This document shows, one piece after another, positions 5,384 to 64,000 of a stretch of 64,000 nucleotides of DNA. The stretch is taken from the NCBI RefSeq assembly GCF_019090095.1, contig NZ_JAGQFP010000001.1, forward strand, positions 1,364,001 to 1,428,000, written 5' to 3'. The notes under the pieces are model-generated. The model was not told where the DNA came from. It was given only the letters and a program-made list of their open reading frames with translations, and did not search any database. Position numbers and translations under genes: made by a program. The DNA is from Stutzerimonas stutzeri. Its GTDB lineage: Bacteria; Pseudomonadota; Gammaproteobacteria; Pseudomonadales; Pseudomonadaceae. The stretch's first letter is position 1, and each line of letters begins with the position of its first letter.

Positions 5384-6745
5384 TCAGGCACGGCGGAACA
5401 CGATGTCAAACGCCGTCCAGCCGTCGCGACTGCTGCAGCGGATCTCGCCCTGGTGTGCCTCGACGATGGACCGGGTAATCGCCAGCCCCAGCCCGGCGTT
5501 GCTCGGATGGCCCTCGCGCCGTGCCGGGTCGACGCGGTAGAAGCGGTCGAACAACCGAGGCAGATGTTCCTCGGCGATGGTCGTGCCGGGATTGCCGATG
5601 CTGAGCGTCACCCCGTCACGGCCGGACGCGATCGTCAGATGAATGACCCCGCCGTCCGGGGTATAGCGCAGCGCATTGGACAGCAGATTCGACAAGGCAC
5701 GGCGCAGCATCAACGGGTCGCCCTTTATCTGCCCCTGGCCGGACAGCTCGAAGCGGATGCCGCGCTCGTCAGCCGTCAACTGATAGAAATCCAGCAGCTG
5801 GTGGCACAGCTCGTTCAGCACGATCGGTTGCGCGTCTGGAATGAGCAGGCCGTTATCCGCCTTGGCCAGAAACAGCATGTCGTCGATCATGCGTGCCATG
5901 TGCCGCAGCTCTTCCAGATTGGAATAGAGGTTTTCCTGATAGTCCTCGCTGCTACGCGCACGGGTCAGTACCACTTCGGTGTGCGTCATCAGGTTGGACA
6001 GCGGCGTGCGAAGCTCATGGGCGATGTCCGCGGAGAAGTTGGACAGGCGCACAAAGGCATCTTCCAGCCGCGCCAGCATGGCGTTGAATGCCAACACCAA
6101 TTGCCGCAGCTCAGCCGGTGTCGACTCGGTGGGGATTCGTTCGGTCAGCGACTTGGCGGACACCGAGGCCGCTACCTGCGTCACCTCGCGCAACGGGCGC
6201 AGGCCACTGCGGGCCAGTACCCAGCCGAGCACGCCGCTGATCAGCGCACAGAGCACCAATGCGCCCCAGAGCCAGCCGGTCAGTGTACGAAAGAACACCT
6301 TGTGGGCGGTCACGTCGAGCGCAAGGACGATCCTCAGCCGTTGCCCGCCGACGTCCACCTCACCGGTCTTGCGCTGCCAGACGCGGCCTTCGCGCTGAAG
6401 CTCGCCATCCACCATCGATAGCGGCAGGCTGCTTGCCAGCTGCGTCCCGCCCGTGTCGGCGAACAACAGGCGCCCCTCTGCATCGAATATCAGCGCGGTC
6501 AGCTCACTGTGGCCACCCAGCAAGGCTTGCAGCTGCGGGCGCATGGCGTCGAAGCCGGACAGGCCGTCGAGCCCGCTGAGCAGGTGTCGGCTGGCCTGCA
6601 GCTTTTCCTCCAGGGCATGACGGTCAAGCTGATCGAAGTGATGCTGGCTCAGCTGCTTGAAGAAGAAGCCCGCCGCGCCGAGCACACCGGTGACCGCCAG
6701 CATGAACATCAGACTGAGCCTGGCCGTGAGCGACAAGCGCGTCAT
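5384..6745 (-). CDS. copS: Heavy-metal sensor histidine kinase, CopS/CusS type
   Basis: Inner-membrane sensor kinase of 453 residues. Two membrane spans (about 8-29 and 157-177) enclose a ~125-residue periplasmic sensor region; then come a HAMP segment, the HisKA box [15 protein letters not shown] with phospho-acceptor H243, and a HATPase domain ending in DRFYRVDP and [16 protein letters not shown]. This matches the CusS/CopS family that senses periplasmic Cu(I)/Ag(I). Its ATG overlaps the stop of the regulator gene by four bases (ATGA), so the two are translationally coupled. Copper specificity is inferred from the adjacent copA/copB genes. Confidence 0.9.
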
Positions 6746-55628: not shown

Positions 55629-58520
55629 ATGCAAAACGAGTCCATTCGCGAGAACCCACACGCCGACAGCACGCTGGACCTGGCCGCCACGGCGCCGGGC
55701 CAGCTGCGCGTGATCAAGCGCAACGGTACCGTCGTCCCCTACACCGATGACAAGATCACCGTCGCCATCACCAAGGCGTTTCTCGCAGTGGAAGGCAACA
55801 ACGCCTCCGCCTCGTCGCGCATCCACGACACGGTTCAGCGCCTGACCGAGCAGGTCACCGCCACCTTCAAGCGCCGCATGCCCTCCGGCGGCACCATCCA
55901 CATCGAAGAAATCCAGGACCAGGTCGAACTGGCCCTGATGCGTTCCGGCGAGCAGAAGGTTGCCCGCGACTACGTGATCTACCGCGAATCGCGCAGCCAG
56001 GAGCGCAAGCGTGGCGCCATCGAGACACCGGTCGACGCCCACCCGAGCATCCGCATCAAGCGTGCCGACGGCAGCCTGTCGCCGCTGGACCTGGGCCGCC
56101 TGAACACCATCATCACCGAAGCCTGCGAAGGCCTCGAAGAAGTCGATGGCGCGCTGATCCAGAAAGAAACCCTGAAGAACCTCTACGACGGCGTCGAGCA
56201 GACCGACGTCAACACCGCCCTGGTGATGACCGCCCGTACCCTGGTCGAGCGTGAGCCGAACTACTCCTACGTCACTGCCCGCCTGCTGATGGACACCCTG
56301 CGCGCCGAAGCCCTGAGCTTCCTGGAAGTCGCCGAGTCGGCCACCCATCACGAAATGGCCGACCTCTACGCCAAGGCCCTGCCCGCCTACGTGGAAAAGG
56401 GCGTCGAGTTCGAACTGCTCGACCCGCGCCTGAAGGAATTCGACCTGGCCAAGCTGGGCGCCGCGATCAACCACGAGCAGGACCAGCAGTTCACCTACCT
56501 CGGCCTGCAGACCCTCTACGACCGCTACTTCCTGCACAAGGACGGCGTGCGCTTCGAGCTGCCGCAGATCTTCTTCATGCGCGTCGCCATGGGCCTGGCC
56601 ATCGAGGAAGAACAGCGTGAAGCCCGCGCCATCGAGTTCTACAACCTGCTGTCGTCCTTCGACTACATGGCCTCCACGCCGACCCTGTTCAACGCCGGCA
56701 CCCTGCGTCCGCAGCTGTCCTCCTGCTACCTGACCACCGTGCCGGACGACCTGGGCGGCATCTACGACGCCATCCGCGATAACGCCCTGCTCTCCAAGTT
56801 CGCCGGCGGCCTGGGCAACGACTGGACCCCGGTGCGTGCACTGGGCGCCTACATCAAGGGCACCAACGGCAAATCCCAGGGCGTCGTGCCCTTCCTCAAA
56901 GTGGTCAACGACACCGCGGTGGCGGTCAACCAGGGCGGCAAGCGCAAGGGCGCCGTCTGCGCCTACCTGGAAACCTGGCACCTGGACATCGAGGAATTCC
57001 TCGAGCTGCGCAAAAACACCGGTGACGACCGTCGCCGTACCCACGACATGAACACCGCCAACTGGATTCCGGACCTGTTCATGAAGCGCGTCTTCGACGA
57101 CGGCAAGTGGACCCTGTTCTCGCCGAGCGAAGTACCCGACCTGCACGACCTCACCGGCAAGGCCTTCGAGGAACGCTACGAGTACTACGAAGCCCTGATC
57201 GAATACGGCAAGATCAAGAACTACAAGACCCTGCAGGCCAAAGACCTGTGGCGCAAGATGCTGTCCATGCTGTTCGAAACCGGCCACCCATGGCTGACCT
57301 TCAAGGACCCGTGCAACCTGCGCAGCCCGCAGCAGCACGTCGGCGTGGTGCACAGCTCCAACCTCTGCACCGAGATCACGCTGAACACCAACAAGGACGA
57401 GATCGCCGTCTGCAACCTGGGCTCGATCAACCTGCCGCGCCACATCGTCGACGGCAAGCTCGACACCGCCAAGCTGGAGCGCACCGTGCGCACCGCCGTG
57501 CGGATGCTCGATAACGTCATCGACATCAACTATTACTCCGTGCCGCAGGCGCAGAACTCCAACTTCAAGCACCGCCCGGTGGGCCTGGGCATCATGGGCT
57601 TCCAGGACGCGCTGTACCTGCAGCACATCCCCTACGGCTCCGATGCCGCCATCGACTTCGCCGACAAGTCCATGGAAGCGGTCAGCTACTACGCCATCCA
57701 GGCCTCCTGCGACCTGGCCGACGAGCGCGGTGCCTACGAGAGCTTCCAGGGTTCGCTGTGGAGCCAGGGCATCCTGCCGCTGGACTCGCAGCAGATCCTC
57801 ATCGAAGCGCGTGGCCAGAAGTACATCGACGTCGACCTGTCCGAGTCCCTGGACTGGGCGCCGGTCCGTGCCCGCGTCAAGAACGGCATCCGTAACTCGA
57901 ACATCATGGCCATCGCGCCGACCGCGACCATCGCCAACATCACCGGCGTATCGCAGTCCATCGAGCCGACCTACCAGAACCTGTACGTGAAATCGAACCT
58001 CTCGGGCGAATTCACCGTGATCAACCCCTACCTGGTTCGCGACCTCAAGGCGCGCGGCCTGTGGGACGCGGTCATGATCAACGACCTCAAGTACTACGAC
58101 GGTTCGGTACAGCAGATCGAGCGCATCCCGCAGGAGTTGAAAGACCTCTACGCGACCGCCTTCGAAGTGGAAACCAAGTGGATCGTCGACGCCGCCAGCC
58201 GCCGCCAGAAGTGGATCGACCAGGCCCAGTCGCTGAACCTCTACATCGCCGGCGCCAGCGGCAAGAAGCTGGACGTGACCTACCGCATGGCCTGGTACCG
58301 TGGCCTGAAAACCACCTACTACCTCCGTGCCCTGGCCGCGACCAGCACCGAGAAGTCCACCGTCAACACCGGCAAGCTCAACGCCGTGTCCAGCGGTGGC
58401 AACAGCGGCCCGAGCGCCGCCCCGGCCAAGGCGGCGCCCGCACCAGAAATGGCAGCCGGCCCGGCACCAGTGCCAAAAGCGTGCGCAATCGATGAGCCAG
58501 ACTGCGAAGCCTGCCAATAA
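55629..58520 (+). CDS. nrdA: Ribonucleoside-diphosphate reductase alpha subunit (class Ia)
   Basis: Catalytic subunit of 963 residues reducing NDPs to dNDPs. Two N-terminal ATP-cone modules are visible: LRVIKRNGTVVPYTDDKITV with GGTIHIEEIQDQVELALMRS, and IRIKRADGSLSPLDLGRLNT with YVTARLLMDT; a double cone is known for P. aeruginosa NrdA, where the first gives dATP inhibition. Catalytic elements: LRPQLSSCYLTT, SNLCTEI, CNLGSINLP, and the C-terminal shuttle pair in DEPDCEACQ. The ribosome site is modest (GGAGACCCC). First gene of nrdAB; regulation by NrdR and DnaA is suggested by upstream sites. Confidence 0.97.
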   Translation: MQNESIRENPHADSTLDLAATAPGQLRVIKRNGTVVPYTDDKITVAITKAFLAVEGNNASASSRIHDTVQRLTEQVTATFKRRMPSGGTIHIEEIQDQVELALMRSGEQKVARDYVIYRESRSQERKRGAIETPVDAHPSIRIKRADGSLSPLDLGRLNTIITEACEGLEEVDGALIQKETLKNLYDGVEQTDVNTALVMTARTLVEREPNYSYVTARLLMDTLRAEALSFLEVAESATHHEMADLYAKALPAYVEKGVEFELLDPRLKEFDLAKLGAAINHEQDQQFTYLGLQTLYDRYFLHKDGVRFELPQIFFMRVAMGLAIEEEQREARAIEFYNLLSSFDYMASTPTLFNAGTLRPQLSSCYLTTVPDDLGGIYDAIRDNALLSKFAGGLGNDWTPVRALGAYIKGTNGKSQGVVPFLKVVNDTAVAVNQGGKRKGAVCAYLETWHLDIEEFLELRKNTGDDRRRTHDMNTANWIPDLFMKRVFDDGKWTLFSPSEVPDLHDLTGKAFEERYEYYEALIEYGKIKNYKTLQAKDLWRKMLSMLFETGHPWLTFKDPCNLRSPQQHVGVVHSSNLCTEITLNTNKDEIAVCNLGSINLPRHIVDGKLDTAKLERTVRTAVRMLDNVIDINYYSVPQAQNSNFKHRPVGLGIMGFQDALYLQHIPYGSDAAIDFADKSMEAVSYYAIQASCDLADERGAYESFQGSLWSQGILPLDSQQILIEARGQKYIDVDLSESLDWAPVRARVKNGIRNSNIMAIAPTATIANITGVSQSIEPTYQNLYVKSNLSGEFTVINPYLVRDLKARGLWDAVMINDLKYYDGSVQQIERIPQELKDLYATAFEVETKWIVDAASRRQKWIDQAQSLNLYIAGASGKKLDVTYRMAWYRGLKTTYYLRALAATSTEKSTVNTGKLNAVSSGGNSGPSAAPAKAAPAPEMAAGPAPVPKACAIDEPDCEACQ

Positions 58521-58922
58521 GTAAGTAGTTGAAAGTCGCGGTCCCCAGGGCGGACCGCGCGTTGTTGCCGGGCAGGCCGGCCCCCAGTAGCGACGAGCGC
58601 TTGCTTGCAAGTAGGCCTAGCCGGCACAGCTGGCAACTTGAGCAACGGACCGGATGCCAACACTTATCCAGTCCCCTCGCCCCTATGGGGAGAGGGTTAG
58701 GGTGAGGGGGCGACCTACCAAACAACACAAAGGCCGGGACCCAACCCCCGACCATCCCCTCGCCCCACCCGGGAGAGGGCCAGGGTGAGGGGCAACCCCG
58801 CCAGACAACATAAAGGCCGGGCCCAACCCCCGACCCAACCAAACACCCGCTTTTGCGTGCACACACAAAAGCCCAGAACATTTCCGACCGGCCGCGCCGG
58901 TCCCCAATCAGGAGAAACCGCC
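58521..58922. other. 402-bp nrdA-nrdB spacer with two G/C hairpin repeats
   Basis: Contains two copies of a CCCCTC...GAGGGG palindrome: 58673-58710 (CCCCTCGCCCC then GGGGAGAGGG and AGGGTGAGGGG) and 58756-58792 (CCCCTCGCCCC, GGGAGAGGG, AGGGTGAGGGG). They are of the same type as the palindromes in the 228-bp array at 27291. No gene. The second hairpin lies about 130 bases upstream of nrdB and could lower or modulate read-through from nrdA. Confidence 0.7.
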
Positions 58923-60173
58923 ATGCTGAGCTGGGACGAATTCGACGAAGAAGAAACCATCACCGCCGCTCCGGCCGCCCCCCAGGCCGCTGCCGCCAGC
59001 AACGAAGCCCCCGCCAAACTCGACCAGGACGCCGCCGGCTCCGTCGAAGAAGCCCGCGCCGTTGCCTCTGACGACTCCGCTGCCGTCGCCCGTGCCAAGA
59101 AGGCCCTGAACGACCTCGACATCCAGGAAGGCCTGGACGAACTCGAAGGCGAATCCGCCCGCGTTCACGTCGGCGACAAGCAGATGATCAACGCCCGCGC
59201 CGACCTCAACCAGCTCGTACCCTTCAAGTACGACTGGGCCTGGCAGAAGTATCTGGATGGTTGCGCCAACCACTGGATGCCGCAGGAAGTGAACATGAAC
59301 GCCGACATCGCCCTGTGGAAGAGCCCGGACGGCCTCTCCGAGGACGAGCGCCGCATCGTCAAGCGCAACCTCGGCTTCTTCTCCACCGCCGACAGCCTGG
59401 TCGCCAACAACCTCGTGCTGGCCGTGTACCGCCTGATCACCAACCCCGAGTGCCGCCAGTACATCCTGCGCCAGGCCTTCGAAGAGGCGATCCACACCCA
59501 CGCCTACCAGTACTGCATCGAATCGCTGGGCATGGATGAAGGCGAGATCTTCAACATGTACCACGAGATCCCGAGCGTCGCGAAGAAAGCCTCCTGGGGC
59601 CTCAAGTACACCCGCTCCATCTCCGACCCGACCTTCCAGACCGGCACCGTCGAGACGGATAAGGAATTCCTGCGCAACCTCATCGCCTACTACTGCGTAC
59701 TGGAAGGCATATTCTTCTACTGCGGCTTCACCCAGATTCTCTCCATGGGCCGCCGCAACAAGATGACCGGCACCGCCGAGCAGTTCCAATACATCCTGCG
59801 CGACGAGTCCATGCACCTGAACTTCGGCATCGACGTGATCAACCAGATCAAGATCGAAAACCCCCACCTGTGGGACGCCGCCATGAAGGACGAAGCGACC
59901 CAGATGATCCTTCAGGGTACCCAACTGGAAATCGAATACGCCCGCGACACCATGCCCCGCGGCGTCCTCGGCATGAACGCCTCGATGATGGAGGACTACC
60001 TCAAGTTCATCGCCAACCGTCGCCTGACGCAGATTGGTTTGAAGGAAGAGTACCCAGGCACCACCAACCCGTTCCCGTGGATGAGCGAGATCATGGACCT
60101 CAAGAAGGAGAAGAACTTCTTTGAGACGCGGGTGATTGAGTATCAGACGGGTGGGGCGTTGAGCTGGGATTGA
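58923..60173 (+). CDS. nrdB: Ribonucleoside-diphosphate reductase beta subunit (class Ia)
   Basis: Radical-generating diiron subunit of 416 residues. An Ala/Glu-rich extension of ~75 residues precedes the ferritin-like core. Iron ligands and radical-site helices are seen in [31 protein letters not shown] and [13 protein letters not shown]; the C-terminus [18 protein letters not shown] provides the NrdA-docking tail. CAGGAG lies upstream of ATG 58923; an upstream extension of the frame is not supported. Only 15 bases separate it from the next gene. Confidence 0.97.
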
Positions 60174-60188
60174 TTTGGAGGGAGTCTT

Positions 60189-60476
60189 ATGTTCGAGATC
60201 CAGGGACTGAATAAGCTACAAAGAGAGTTGGACCAAGCCCAGCGTGCGTTAGACGAATTGGATGGTGAGTTAGGAACCGTCCAGTTCGATCCGCACGACC
60301 CTGCAAGCATCGAGACCGCAATTCAGTCTGCTTGCCAAATGGTCGATAGTCGGGTTGGTCAATACTCATCCAATCCGATCATAGGCCCGCTAATCGACCA
60401 AATAAAAGAATCATATCGAGGGAATATTGTTCAGAAAGCGGCCGAGGCTAGGCTTCAAGTCGAAGAGGATGAATAA
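60189..60476 (+). CDS. Small helical protein, partner of the TIR-like gene
   Basis: Protein of 95 residues of unrecognised function. The N-terminal third (LNKLQRELDQAQRALDELDG) predicts a coiled coil; then come FDPHDPASIETAIQSACQMV and NPIIGPLIDQIKESYRGNI, mostly helical. A strong GGAGGGAG site precedes the ATG. It begins 15 bases after the nrdB stop, with no terminator visible between, and its TAA overlaps the next ATG (TAATG), so it is translationally coupled to the TIR-like gene. Base composition is close to 50% GC, well below nrdB, which suggests acquisition. A toxin-neutralising or adaptor role is speculation. Confidence 0.7.
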   Translation: MFEIQGLNKLQRELDQAQRALDELDGELGTVQFDPHDPASIETAIQSACQMVDSRVGQYSSNPIIGPLIDQIKESYRGNIVQKAAEARLQVEEDE

Positions 60477-61372
60477 TGACTCAAGACCTCTTTGCTGAAA
60501 TCAACAACGCAGTTCTTGATCTGCAGGCTTCTCAACTTCAAACATATGAACGCCCGCTGAAAAAGCTCGCTCAATTGTTGAGACACCCTGAGCTCGAGCC
60601 CTACACCAGTGAGCTTACAGAGGGGCTAGATCTGGACCTCTTCCTCAAGGAAAGCGAAAAATCCGGCGGAAGCTTTGTGGGAAGCGCCCAATTGGCCTTT
60701 CCAGATGATTCTAAGGAAGAGCTCGGATTGACTTTACTTCTCATCCAGAAGCTGGGTGATAACCCGCGCTATGCAATCAATTTCAGCCATCACTTTTTCT
60801 ATTCTGGAAAAAAGGTTATCGCCGGCATCCACTCTTTAACTGGGCAACTCATCATTCCTTTTGTTCGTGACTTCAAAAATTACGTCCAAGCCAAAGGAAA
60901 CACCCAACCCGTGTTAAAGCCTCCTCTTTCCAGCAAAGTCTTCATTGTGCATGGCCACGATGATGGGGCGCGCGAAACAGTGGCGCGCTTCTTGGAGCGT
61001 ATCGGGCTAGAAGCCATCATCCTGCACGAGCAGGCTAATCAAGGACGTACCGTTATCGAAAAAGTGATTGCGCACGGTGATGTCGGCTTTGCCGTGGTCC
61101 TGCTCACCCCCGATGACGAAGGCTGTGCGAAGGGTGGAAATCTTGAACCGCGGGCCAGACAAAACGTTCTGCTGGAACTGGGCTACTTTATTGGCCGCCT
61201 GGGTCGCGATAAGGTCTGCGCCCTCAAGCGGGGCACGCTAGAGATTCCTAGTGACTTTGCAGGCGTCGTTTGGGAACAGATGGACAGTGGCAGCGGTTGG
61301 AAGCAAGCCCTTGCTCGCGAACTGGCGGCAGCAGGCCACGACATCGACTGGAACAAGGTGATGCGCAGTTGA
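60476..61372 (+). CDS. TIR-like nucleotide-binding domain protein (PF10137-type)
   Basis: Protein of 298 residues. Residues 1-150 form an N-terminal domain I do not recognise. Residues ~153-290 match the TIR-like domain of predicted nucleotide-binding proteins and of some CBASS/Pycsar effectors: KVFIVHGHDDGARETVARFL, HEQANQGRTVIEKV, GFAVVLLTPDD and RARQNVLLELGYFIGRLG, in which E234 is the likely catalytic glutamate of an NAD-cleaving TIR. GVVWEQMDSGSGWKQALARE closes the domain. No cyclase or other defence sensor is adjacent. Composition is lower in GC than nrdAB. NADase activity is inferred from the family, not shown. Confidence 0.85.
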   Translation: MTQDLFAEINNAVLDLQASQLQTYERPLKKLAQLLRHPELEPYTSELTEGLDLDLFLKESEKSGGSFVGSAQLAFPDDSKEELGLTLLLIQKLGDNPRYAINFSHHFFYSGKKVIAGIHSLTGQLIIPFVRDFKNYVQAKGNTQPVLKPPLSSKVFIVHGHDDGARETVARFLERIGLEAIILHEQANQGRTVIEKVIAHGDVGFAVVLLTPDDEGCAKGGNLEPRARQNVLLELGYFIGRLGRDKVCALKRGTLEIPSDFAGVVWEQMDSGSGWKQALARELAAAGHDIDWNKVMRS

Positions 61373-62263
61373 CGATGCCGTTGTCGAGAGCGAGGTAGCC
61401 TGGAAATGGCGCGTGGGAAAGGCTCCGCCGTTCCACCCTACGCTCGATAATAAAAAAGGAACATATTTATTTTAGGAAGCAGAAAGAAATTACCTTGACG
61501 CCCTGCTCTACCTAAAGCCGTACAGATAGATTCAACCTTTTCTGGAGTTTTCAAAAAGGGCTAATAAGCCTTGAACTCGTTCGACAATGCCTTAAAAAAG
61601 GGGACAGATTTATTTTCTGCGGCCGGCTCGCCGTTCCGCGTCCCCCGCCACTCTTTCCTTGGTCCCACCGACAGGTTTCGCCTTGCACGGCGAGTCACTT
61701 TTTCTCTTCCGGCCAAGAGAAAGCCTCCCCGACATCCGGGTCTGGCCTCCGGCCAGACTTCCCTCGCTCCGGCACTGCTCCGGGGGCCGACTTACAATGG
61801 CCATCCTTGGCCCTTTAAGCCTCTCGCCGCACCCATGCGGCTCGTCCCCCTACGCAACACCTCCACTCGGCCTCCTGACGGGGATCGGAGTCCGAGTCGC
61901 CCGCGAGTTCTTTGGATTATTTATTTCTTCTGCGCGTATCGGCAGGCGACACCCACCGCCCCTTTCAGGAGGGTGAACGGAATCATCCTGGAAGGGGTTG
62001 AGCGGCACGGATGCCGCGAGAGCCGTGATGGGCCATGGATGGCCCTTCGCGGCGTGCCCCTGCAACGGCGATGGAGTGAAACGGAGCGTAGCGAAGTAAC
62101 AGCCGAAGGCTGGCCCGAAGGGCGAGCGAAGCGAGTAACGAACCCGTAGCGAAGCGTCGGCCGGATTTAGGCGTAAGACCTTTTGATTTGTTTAGCGGGG
62201 CCGACTGTTCGGACGGGCGCGCCTCTTTCACTAATGCTTAAAAGGCTTATATCAAGCTCTAAC
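61373..62263. other. 891-bp intergenic stretch with dispersed-repeat sequence
   Basis: No gene is supported. The first part is AT-rich and includes GGAACATATTTATTTTAGG near 61459 and the conserved GGGGACAGATTTATTTTCT at 61600-61618. The following ~600 bases are C/T-rich on this strand, with short inverted segments (for example CGGGTCTGGCCTCCGGCCAG) and a run of GAGCGAAGCGAGTAACGAAC type near 62130. Similar sequence is familiar as repetitive intergenic filler in pseudomonads. Short frames on both strands here look spurious. Confidence 0.5.
61597..61618 (+). repeat. Direct repeat, left copy (AAAGGGGACAGATTTATTTT motif)
   Basis: A 22-bp sequence, AAAGGGGACAGATTTATTTT plus CT, identical to the copy ending at 63748 and in the same orientation. 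The pair bounds about 2.1 kb that includes the AT-rich membrane-protein gene. Confidence 0.75.
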
Positions 62264-63352
62264 TCACTCTTCTTCTAGCGTAGCTATAGCAGCAACCGAA
62301 CCGCTTGGAATACTTATAACTTTACGCGGCGCTACAACAGGCAGCTCCAGCCGATACATCTCACCTAACGACCAAATTATTTTTGCATTCCTTATTACGC
62401 ACTCATCACCAACCACTCCTTCAAATGTAACTTTGAAATCCGAGCACGCATCTTTATCTAATACCACCTCCTCGGCAACATAATTTCCAACCCCCAGAAT
62501 TCTTATAATATTTTTCGGAAGAACAGCCCAGGCTCCCGCTATCAAGCTAAACAAGATAGCAAAGAGGGCACCAAAGAAAACCGTGTATTTATGACTTGTT
62601 AAACCAGAAATAGCACTTACAAAGAAAACAAGCGACAACGCAATCGTTACACCAACAGCTAAAAGCATTTGAATAGAATCATCAGCCGACTCAGCGTGAG
62701 CCTTGACAATTATAAGTACCACTAGAAAGTTAATGAAGCAAGAGATAAAAATCGAAAATAATGTAACCACTACATACTTAACTAAACTACCAAAACTCAG
62801 CTCATATACAACTCTAATCTCTACAGCGCAAATTATCGTCAAGAAAAAAAGAACTGCAATTGACACAACCCCCTTTAACCCGCTGCCGATATAGTCTGCC
62901 GTAAGCACCCAGATAAAAAATAAATTAAAGAATAACAGCGGCAGAAGAAAGTATGCACGACCTAGCATTCTAAAGTTTTGGTGACTTTTGCAAGCGGAAC
63001 GCCAAAGGTTGCTGTACCCAAGCTCATCACTCACTTGCCGATCTTTCACAAAAGTATCAAACCAAAAGAAACCCGGGGCCGCAATACCAAAAACAAGAAC
63101 CAAATAAGCTGCCAATCCAATTACAAAAGCAGCAAGCAGCAGTGAAGTAAGAGAAAAAAAATCAAAACTAGGAAAAAAATTATTTTGGCAGAAATATATA
63201 AGAAATATGAGAAACCCGATCGCCAGGGGGCCAAACTTTATCAAATAAGAAGATTTATCGAAAAAGAACTCTGTGACACCATTAATCCGATCGACTTCCG
63301 ATGATCCGTCAACTTTTACTTTTTTCAAAAACGCCTCACAGATGAATATCAT
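62264..63352 (-). CDS. AT-rich multi-spanning membrane protein of unknown function
   Basis: Protein of 362 residues with no family I recognise. About eight hydrophobic spans are visible (for example FGPLAIGFLIFLIYF, LLLAAFVIGLAAYLVLVFGI, GVVSIAVLFFLTIICAVEI, FINFLVVLIIVKAH), followed by an ~85-residue non-hydrophobic C-terminal domain with Cys in DKDACSDF and GDECVIRN. Base composition is near 40% GC with codon use quite unlike the chromosome, a clear sign of transfer. The ATG at 63352 was chosen; a TTG immediately precedes it and no strong ribosome site is seen. It is flanked by 22-bp direct repeats. Confidence 0.7.
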   Translation of the reverse strand: MIFICEAFLKKVKVDGSSEVDRINGVTEFFFDKSSYLIKFGPLAIGFLIFLIYFCQNNFFPSFDFFSLTSLLLAAFVIGLAAYLVLVFGIAAPGFFWFDTFVKDRQVSDELGYSNLWRSACKSHQNFRMLGRAYFLLPLLFFNLFFIWVLTADYIGSGLKGVVSIAVLFFLTIICAVEIRVVYELSFGSLVKYVVVTLFSIFISCFINFLVVLIIVKAHAESADDSIQMLLAVGVTIALSLVFFVSAISGLTSHKYTVFFGALFAILFSLIAGAWAVLPKNIIRILGVGNYVAEEVVLDKDACSDFKVTFEGVVGDECVIRNAKIIWSLGEMYRLELPVVAPRKVISIPSGSVAAIATLEEE

Positions 63353-63457
63353 CAATCATTGATGCTATGCCCCAGGTGACTGTTACGTGGACTACGGTCA
63401 CGTGGGCGCGGGGGATAAGACAGAAATACCTTAACTTGAATAAAAAATCAGCAAGGA

Positions 63458-63724
63458 TTAATGGGATACCCACAACTCACATACCTTACCCGCCACCTTC
63501 ATCACCCACACCGTCGGATCATCCCGACGACTCTCCGGATACACGAGGTGAAACGGCTTCCCCTCCATCTCCGGCCCAAACGGCTGCATCAGCCGCCCTG
63601 CCCTCACCTCGCCCTCGAACAACTGACGGCTCATCAAGGCCACGCCCTGCGCGCCGATGGCGGCTGAGATGGCGTGGGTCTCGTCGGAGAAGACCGGTCC
63701 GGCACTGACGTCCAGCCCCGAAAG
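63458..63724 (-). pseudogene. Fragment of a LysR-type regulator C-terminus
   Basis: Translation on the minus strand gives GLDVSAGPVFSDETHAISAA, then IGAQGVALMSRQLFEGEVRA and GRLMQPFGPEMEGKPFHLVY, the end of a GcvA-like LysR effector domain. The reading is cut at 63724 by the GGGGACAGATTTATTTTC repeat and loses similarity after ESRRDDP, so both ends are truncated. GC content here returns to the chromosomal level. Confidence 0.65.
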
Positions 63725-63726
63725 AC

Positions 63727-63748
63727 AAAGGGGACAGATTTATTTTCT
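63727..63748 (+). repeat. Direct repeat, right copy (AAAGGGGACAGATTTATTTT motif)
   Basis: Second copy of the 22-bp sequence. It abuts the broken end of the LysR fragment, so insertion or recombination at this motif probably caused the truncation. Confidence 0.75.
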
Positions 63749-64000
63749 ACACCCCGCCCGCTCGTTTTTCCGTTGGACGTTTATCCGCACCGTGCTATTA
63801 GCGCCGTGCCGGAAGAAACGCCAGTGGTGCAGGCGGGCCGCGATTTGAAATCTAGCAGCCCCCCGACAGTGCCCAAGCCCAATTTCGTGATTAAGGGCCG
63901 GTTAGCCAGTGCCATCAAACAGATAGACTGCGGCCCGGTTCAACAGCACAGGGAAGATTTTCATGGGGACGGACACCCTTAAAGACGCGACCTACCCGTT
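63749..64000. other. Right edge of the window, no gene identified
   Basis: A + strand frame runs through to about 63982 but has no recognisable family or ribosome site. The sequence ATGGGGACGGACACCC near 63962 looks like another dispersed-repeat motif. What follows lies outside the window. Confidence 0.3.

Follow-up and report, generated by a model that had tools for sequence, protein, structure and literature searches.

A mobile two-gene TIR module behind nrdB in Stutzerimonas stutzeri and on the F plasmid, a probable anti-phage system

Introduction

In Cap12, the TIR-STING effector of the cyclic-oligonucleotide-based antiphage signalling systems (CBASS), the TIR domain comes first and the STING domain after it. 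The present study deals with a pair of overlapping genes in a stretch of 64,000 nucleotides (nt) of Stutzerimonas stutzeri DNA (contig NZ_JAGQFP010000001.1, positions 1,364,001 to 1,428,000; this whole stretch is called the window), which lie directly behind nrdB and encode a 95-residue protein and a TIR protein. In this TIR protein a helical domain precedes the TIR domain and no STING domain is recognised. From the short prokaryotic Argonaute and TIR-APAZ system (SPARTA) the pair differs in that its two proteins have no Argonaute or APAZ match (the neighbouring genes were not scanned) and in that the partner has 95 residues. The TIR region matches PDC-S35, a phage-defence candidate of PADLOC, and the pair on the F plasmid of Escherichia coli consists of the same genes in the same order with the same overlap, but it is convergent to an NTPase gene rather than placed behind nrdB. 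The setting resembles the core defence hotspots cDHS1 and cDHS2 of Pseudomonas aeruginosa, which are likewise slots flanked by core genes and filled with exchangeable defence cargo; their flanking genes are other ones, however, and the main text of that paper (PMC10250203) contains neither 'nrdB' nor 'ribonucleotide reductase'.

Our analysis has revealed that the two genes form a real and widespread mobile module. It is probably one anti-phage module of the abortive-infection kind, which would have arrived here at a defence hotspot behind nrdB, and it bears the marks of NAD-depleting phage defence (NAD, nicotinamide adenine dinucleotide).

Results

The pair in the window

The gene of the small protein (60189..60476, forward strand) follows a 15-nt spacer (60174..60188) which has a GGAGG ribosome-site-like stretch and no terminator, and its stop overlaps as TAATG with the start of the TIR gene (60476..61372, forward strand, 298 residues). 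This layout had been described in the first-pass annotation of the window and is confirmed. The preceding nrdB (58923..60173, forward strand), encoding the ribonucleotide reductase small subunit, has a homologue in 54 of the 56 Stutzerimonas genomes. The absence of a terminator between nrdB and the pair was also borne out, as the sole forward-strand terminator-like site in 58500-62300 is at 61677, behind the pair; a scan of the same interval, of a kind that misses other promoter types, found no sigma-70-type promoter site. The guanine plus cytosine content is 0.486 in the small gene, 0.469 in the N-terminal part and 0.571 in the TIR part of the TIR gene, against 0.61 in nrdB and 0.638 in the window. 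This lower content and the presence of the pair in only 4 of 97 related genomes fit the acquisition that the annotation had proposed.

The second protein was rightly taken to be of TIR type. Its residues 154-270 (60935..61285, forward strand) match PF10137 (CAP12-PCTIR_TIR) with an E value of 6e-38 and 129.9 bits against a gathering score of 24.7, over positions 1-118 of the 119 in the profile, and the catalytic-type glutamate E234 (codon 61175-61177), the conservation of which had been considered decisive, shows no variation among the 42 proteins aligned. The structure model has helices with loops over residues 2-141 and a TIR fold from residue 154 onward. The TIR domains of TIR-STING and SPARTA tied as the closest solved structures, in comparison rows which span residues 151-297, so the fold of the N-terminal domain was barely probed. 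PDC-S35 matches residues 143-295 against positions 124-277 of its 278 (E 2.4e-70); the five matches to PDC-S35 models all start at protein residue 118 or later and at model position 67 or later, leaving the N-terminal part of the model unmatched. PycTIR of PADLOC matches the TIR part only (E 5e-9). The curated Cap12 model reached 38.4 bits against a cut-off of 450, with residues 204-271 alone being matched, and membership of CBASS Cap12 was rejected on this score. The N-terminal all-helical domain (residues 1-145; 60476..60910, forward strand), delimited by the structure model and alignment, drew no more than weak and isolated matches from Pfam in a set of 34 members, the best being 6e-4 in a single member. 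No cyclic-nucleotide-binding family was among the hits of these 34 N-termini, and Pfam scans of the TIR protein and of the N-termini recognised no STING or cyclic-nucleotide-binding domain. The C-terminal TIR domain would act as the effector and would most likely consume NAD. A phage TIR-like protein, 42% identical to this domain, is encoded in Escherichia phage vB_EcoM-689R2 (L211:2222-2983), where it adjoins a phage DNA polymerase gene.

Searches of Pfam, PADLOC and NCBIfam gave no match to the small protein of the window; some of its E. coli relatives are named 'YuaX family protein' by NCBI. DUF3801 (best 0.006), phrog_8823 (best 3e-4) and phrog_14708 (best 7e-4) were each hit by 3 of 14 relatives and were taken as chance. 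No relative was found among solved structures (best E only 0.27), and no tblastn match to the small protein was obtained in 50,697 phage records, among which the TIR part alone has 5 matches. As for the helical nature claimed for the small protein, it holds for the corresponding part in the structure model of a fused relative; it was not derived from the window's own protein. The small protein appears to be a standing partner of the TIR protein, which it may restrain or activate.

Distribution of the pair

A species-genome collection was scanned with short patterns from an alignment of 14 small proteins, which gave 120 stretches and, non-exhaustively, 58 confirmed loci. The expected co-occurrence of the two genes was found, since 45 of the 58 have a full-length TIR protein encoded behind the small gene (gap of -47 to +12 nt, counted from the aligned part) and 2 others have the two fused. 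Of the other 11, the small gene stands alone in 6 and the C-terminus is another one in 2, while a broken gene, a short TIR match and a contig end account for one each. Of 72,556 plasmid records, 993 have a match to the small protein and 931 to the N-terminal domain; an intact TIR protein is directly downstream or fused in 12 of 13 plasmid loci and is in pieces in one. Annotated single genes of 405 residues fuse both parts in two plasmid loci (Agrobacterium and Neorhizobium). The fusions are few in number, L081 having the protein of L024, L021 being 95% alike and L078 being of the other kind. Viral contigs of IMG/VR carry the pair in 4 of 4 cases, with the TIR protein identical in two and 98% alike in a third. 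The tree of 55 TIR proteins has near-identical copies in different bacterial families, as expected of a mobile module.

The genes annotated around 11 plasmid loci and around the pair on the F plasmid include no cyclase (4-6 kb a side, with incomplete annotation; the window was not scanned), which agrees with the earlier remark that none is nearby. Some Alphaproteobacteria have the small protein with no TIR gene (L069, L070, L082, L084 and L085, near 5500-6280); in two cases examined, a small DUF3892 or DUF2188 gene precedes it.

The pair on the F plasmid

The F plasmid of E. coli EMG2 carries the pair (WP_000538310 and WP_000963206), and these proteins are 42% and 48% identical to those of the window. 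The pair is convergent to a KAP NTPase gene which adjoins pifC; by position and family this NTPase is PifA, an identification of our own. PifA is described as a phage-defence protein linked to a phage capsid protein in the consulted portions of two papers (PMC10884400, PMC10286901). Out of 5,426 E. coli genomes, 279 have the small gene at 80% coverage, 258 the TIR gene and 245 the block of pair and NTPase; the pair is recorded in EMG2, XL1-Blue and NEB Turbo. The literature searched yielded no functional report on the pair and no mention of PDC-S35; in the consulted part of one paper (PMC8703133), yuaX is named once, in a list of plasmid genes. As these are laboratory strains with the F plasmid, what the pair does is testable at once, and the pair may matter for the reading of old F-exclusion results.

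The small protein and the N-terminal domain

In 55 pairs, the divergence of the small protein follows that of the N-terminal domain (r 0.84; partial correlation 0.65 given the TIR domain), whereas its partial correlation with the TIR domain is 0.03 once the N-terminal domain is controlled for; in 500 permutations the observed partial correlation was reached 0 times. Two loci (L066 and L067) have the small gene and then the same N-terminal domain with another C-terminus, which ends moderately hydrophobic. The N-terminal domain was also sought among 369 genomes of the class and 398 of the phylum, the window's genome being in both sets. Both TIR proteins found through this domain (G000 and G612) have the small gene. 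The domain was found, besides, at the C-terminus of a Schlafen/AlbA_2 protein (L093:3559-4989) and in two other proteins (L094 and L095). Conversely, G009 has a TIR domain 76% identical to that of the window with an unmatched N-terminus and no small gene in its flank. These cases indicate that the TIR and N-terminal domains come apart and that the small protein accompanies the N-terminal one. From this pattern we read the small protein and the N-terminal domain as a probable regulatory unit which would drive exchangeable effectors, and the two can serve as a handle for finding further effectors of the same unit.

The variable slot behind nrdB

The DNA behind nrdB differs in nearly every one of the 30 genus genomes compared. 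Out of the 54 nrdB-bearing genomes of the genus, 40 were fetched for analysis of this slot, of which nrdB is the left border. Its right border is a lysR or azoR homologue, found within 20 kb in 32 of the 40 genomes at a distance of 2.4 to 15.9 kb; no right anchor was found in the other eight (G024, G017, G013, G006, G009, G040, G020 and G035), and four of these are among the 29 genomes from which cargo was taken. In the window, the slot covers 60174..64000, and its lysR/azoR anchor is about 11.4 kb downstream of nrdB. PADLOC matches at 1e-5 or better were obtained for 25 of 30 cargo proteins in the 29 genomes and for 1 of 34 conserved proteins to the right of the anchor; two of the 25 are weak (G045 and G025, E about 1e-7), and the rate can be inflated because cargo was picked by eye as the first sizeable one and sometimes a second open reading frame (G007, G018, G028, G038 and G044). 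Of the genomes outside the 29, the pair is present in G000 and G040, no clear cargo was seen in G034, G017, G009, G012 and G053, and G035, G051, G022 and G052 were not scanned. The cargo includes genes of the pyrimidine cyclase system for antiphage resistance (Pycsar), a type XII retron, two reverse transcriptases of the defence-associated (DRT) type, AbiU, dGTPases and a SIR2 protein. Behind nrdB, 26 of the 40 genomes have a terminator-like hairpin, against 0.2 expected by shuffling, a few genomes without a located nrdB stop having been scanned from a fixed offset.

The nrdB 3' slot in Stutzerimonas is best read as a defence hotspot. No paper on it was found in the literature searched, and it is a place to seek new defence genes in Stutzerimonas and perhaps in the wider Pseudomonadaceae. 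Slot genes of G010 (L150:18512-19894) and G044 (L155:17525-19114, on the strand opposite to nrdB) match the PADLOC dGTPase, and the start of the slot in G051 looks dGTPase-like by eye; such genes place the destruction of deoxynucleotides beside the nrdAB operon that makes them.

In two genomes of the family (G852 and G879), a conserved four-gene module with one XerC/D-like gene lies beside a copy of the last 38-39 codons of nrdB (L192:8907-9020 and L194:9048-9158), which suggests that the 3' end of nrdB may be an attachment site for mobile elements with a XerC/D-like recombinase. This module is absent from the 40 fetched Stutzerimonas slots; a 69% relative in G014 is without an nrdB end in the stretch examined. 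No significant repeat of the nrdB end was found inside the 40 slots. Shorter copies of the nrdB end are present in G908 (L193 and L197).

Discussion

In the mechanism that we favour, the 95-residue protein would bind the helical domain at the N-terminus of its TIR partner, and the two together would hold the enzyme off and respond to infection. As the N-terminal domain seems joinable to other parts, it may be a general regulatory unit. The pair would have landed as cargo at the defence hotspot behind nrdB; read-through from nrdAB may aid its expression here and would not be the sensor, and the position behind nrdB need not belong to how the pair works. A wider proposal is made only tentatively, as we would doubt it slightly sooner than accept it. 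In this proposal, the small protein and the 145-residue domain make up a two-part unit for sensing infection that had so far escaped notice. It would drive different killing domains (the TIR NADase and the C-terminus of L066 and L067, with the domain alone on Schlafen/AlbA_2), form a second anti-phage device beside pifA on F-like plasmids, and land in the nrdB 3' defence hotspot of Stutzerimonas and relatives.

Several observations weigh against this reading of the pair as a mobile anti-phage module. PDC-S35 is itself only a candidate, its models miss the N-terminal domain of the window protein, and no model of PADLOC matches the small partner. The slot cargo was picked by eye, and its control consisted of conserved proteins unmatched for length or conservation. 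The small gene has no TIR gene in the fetched flank in 6 of the 58 loci (L046, L069, L070, L082, L084 and L085), and the plasmid records matching the small protein exceed those matching the N-terminal domain by 62, so the link of the small protein to TIR is not a strict one. The N-terminal domain, in its turn, lacks the small gene within the 9-10 kb fetched in L093, L094 and L095. The structure model of the fusion has confident domains but a predicted TM-score (pTM) of 0.53, and contact of the parts is unsupported. Lastly, the pair of Pseudomonas sp. URMO17WK12:I2 (L031) lies 46 nt behind nrdB with no clear terminator, which makes three cases behind nrdB, of two diverged kinds of the pair and none with a strong terminator between.

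These three cases bear on the control by a shared nrdAB transcript that the first-pass annotation had put forward, according to which the pair is an effector under nucleotide-pool control (NrdR, dATP, DnaA) and the coupling matters for its action. The 15-nt spacer free of a terminator and the lack of a sigma-70-type site speak for it, the latter tempered by the promoter types that the scan misses, and so does the recurrence of the place in G040 and L031. The TIR protein of L031 is 82% identical to that of the window; many pairs from other places are at least as close, and the two do not group in the tree, so more than one arrival of the pair behind nrdB may have occurred. Repeated arrival would be explained by the hotspot and also by a benefit from nrd expression. 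In G040 the pair has 97-98% DNA identity with that of the window, nrdA 89% and nrdB 92%, and the 3' part of nrdB is 92-100% alike in 150-nt steps, so any recombination exchange would have included it. Its 34-nt spacer, however, holds a weak hairpin with a T run. Moreover, nrdB is directly upstream in only 2 of the 58 loci (L030, which is G040, and L031) and was absent from the examined flanks of the 13 plasmid loci, the F plasmid, the 4 viral contigs and the genus carriers G044 and G052, and the slot of sister genomes holds many unrelated defence systems, often after a terminator. The proposed control is thus mostly unsupported, and nrdAB-driven sensing was set aside as a general mechanism and kept as a rival. 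The find of L031 led us to raise this rival from improbable to merely unlikely and to lower the mobile anti-phage module slightly, still as the probable reading. In a Saccharibacteria contig assembled from a metagenome (L065:1000-1938), the distance between the pair and an nrdB-like gene of 51% identity is about 4 kb.

A plasmid-stabilising toxin-antitoxin system, with the small protein as antitoxin, the TIR protein as toxin and phage defence secondary or absent, would account for the small gene coming first and being translationally coupled, for the many plasmid copies, and for the small gene occurring without TIR while both TIR proteins traced through the N-terminal domain possess it; VapC-type toxin-antitoxin genes are also nearby in four loci. 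We consider it rather improbable, as the natural fusions speak against a labile free antitoxin, the slot neighbours in sister genomes are defence genes, and the F copy adjoins the NTPase identified here as the phage-defence protein PifA. Activation by a cyclic nucleotide whose source is encoded at another genomic site, as in CBASS or Pycsar, is suggested by the CAP12/PCTIR Pfam family of the TIR domain and by TIR-STING being among the closest solved structures. It is very improbable in view of the score of 38 bits with Cap12 models, the missing STING and cyclic-nucleotide-binding domains and the lack of an annotated cyclase beside the pair on the plasmids searched. The mobile anti-phage module is preferred to all three.

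Regarding the remainder of the slot, the next gene in the window (62264-63355, reverse strand) encodes a 363-residue protein with many hydrophobic stretches. Genes resembling transposases of repetitive extragenic palindromic (REP) elements appear in 13 of the 40 slot listings. Short repeats are present in the window slot at 61600 and 63730 (GGGGACAGATTTATTT), and a similar motif is found at 61458.
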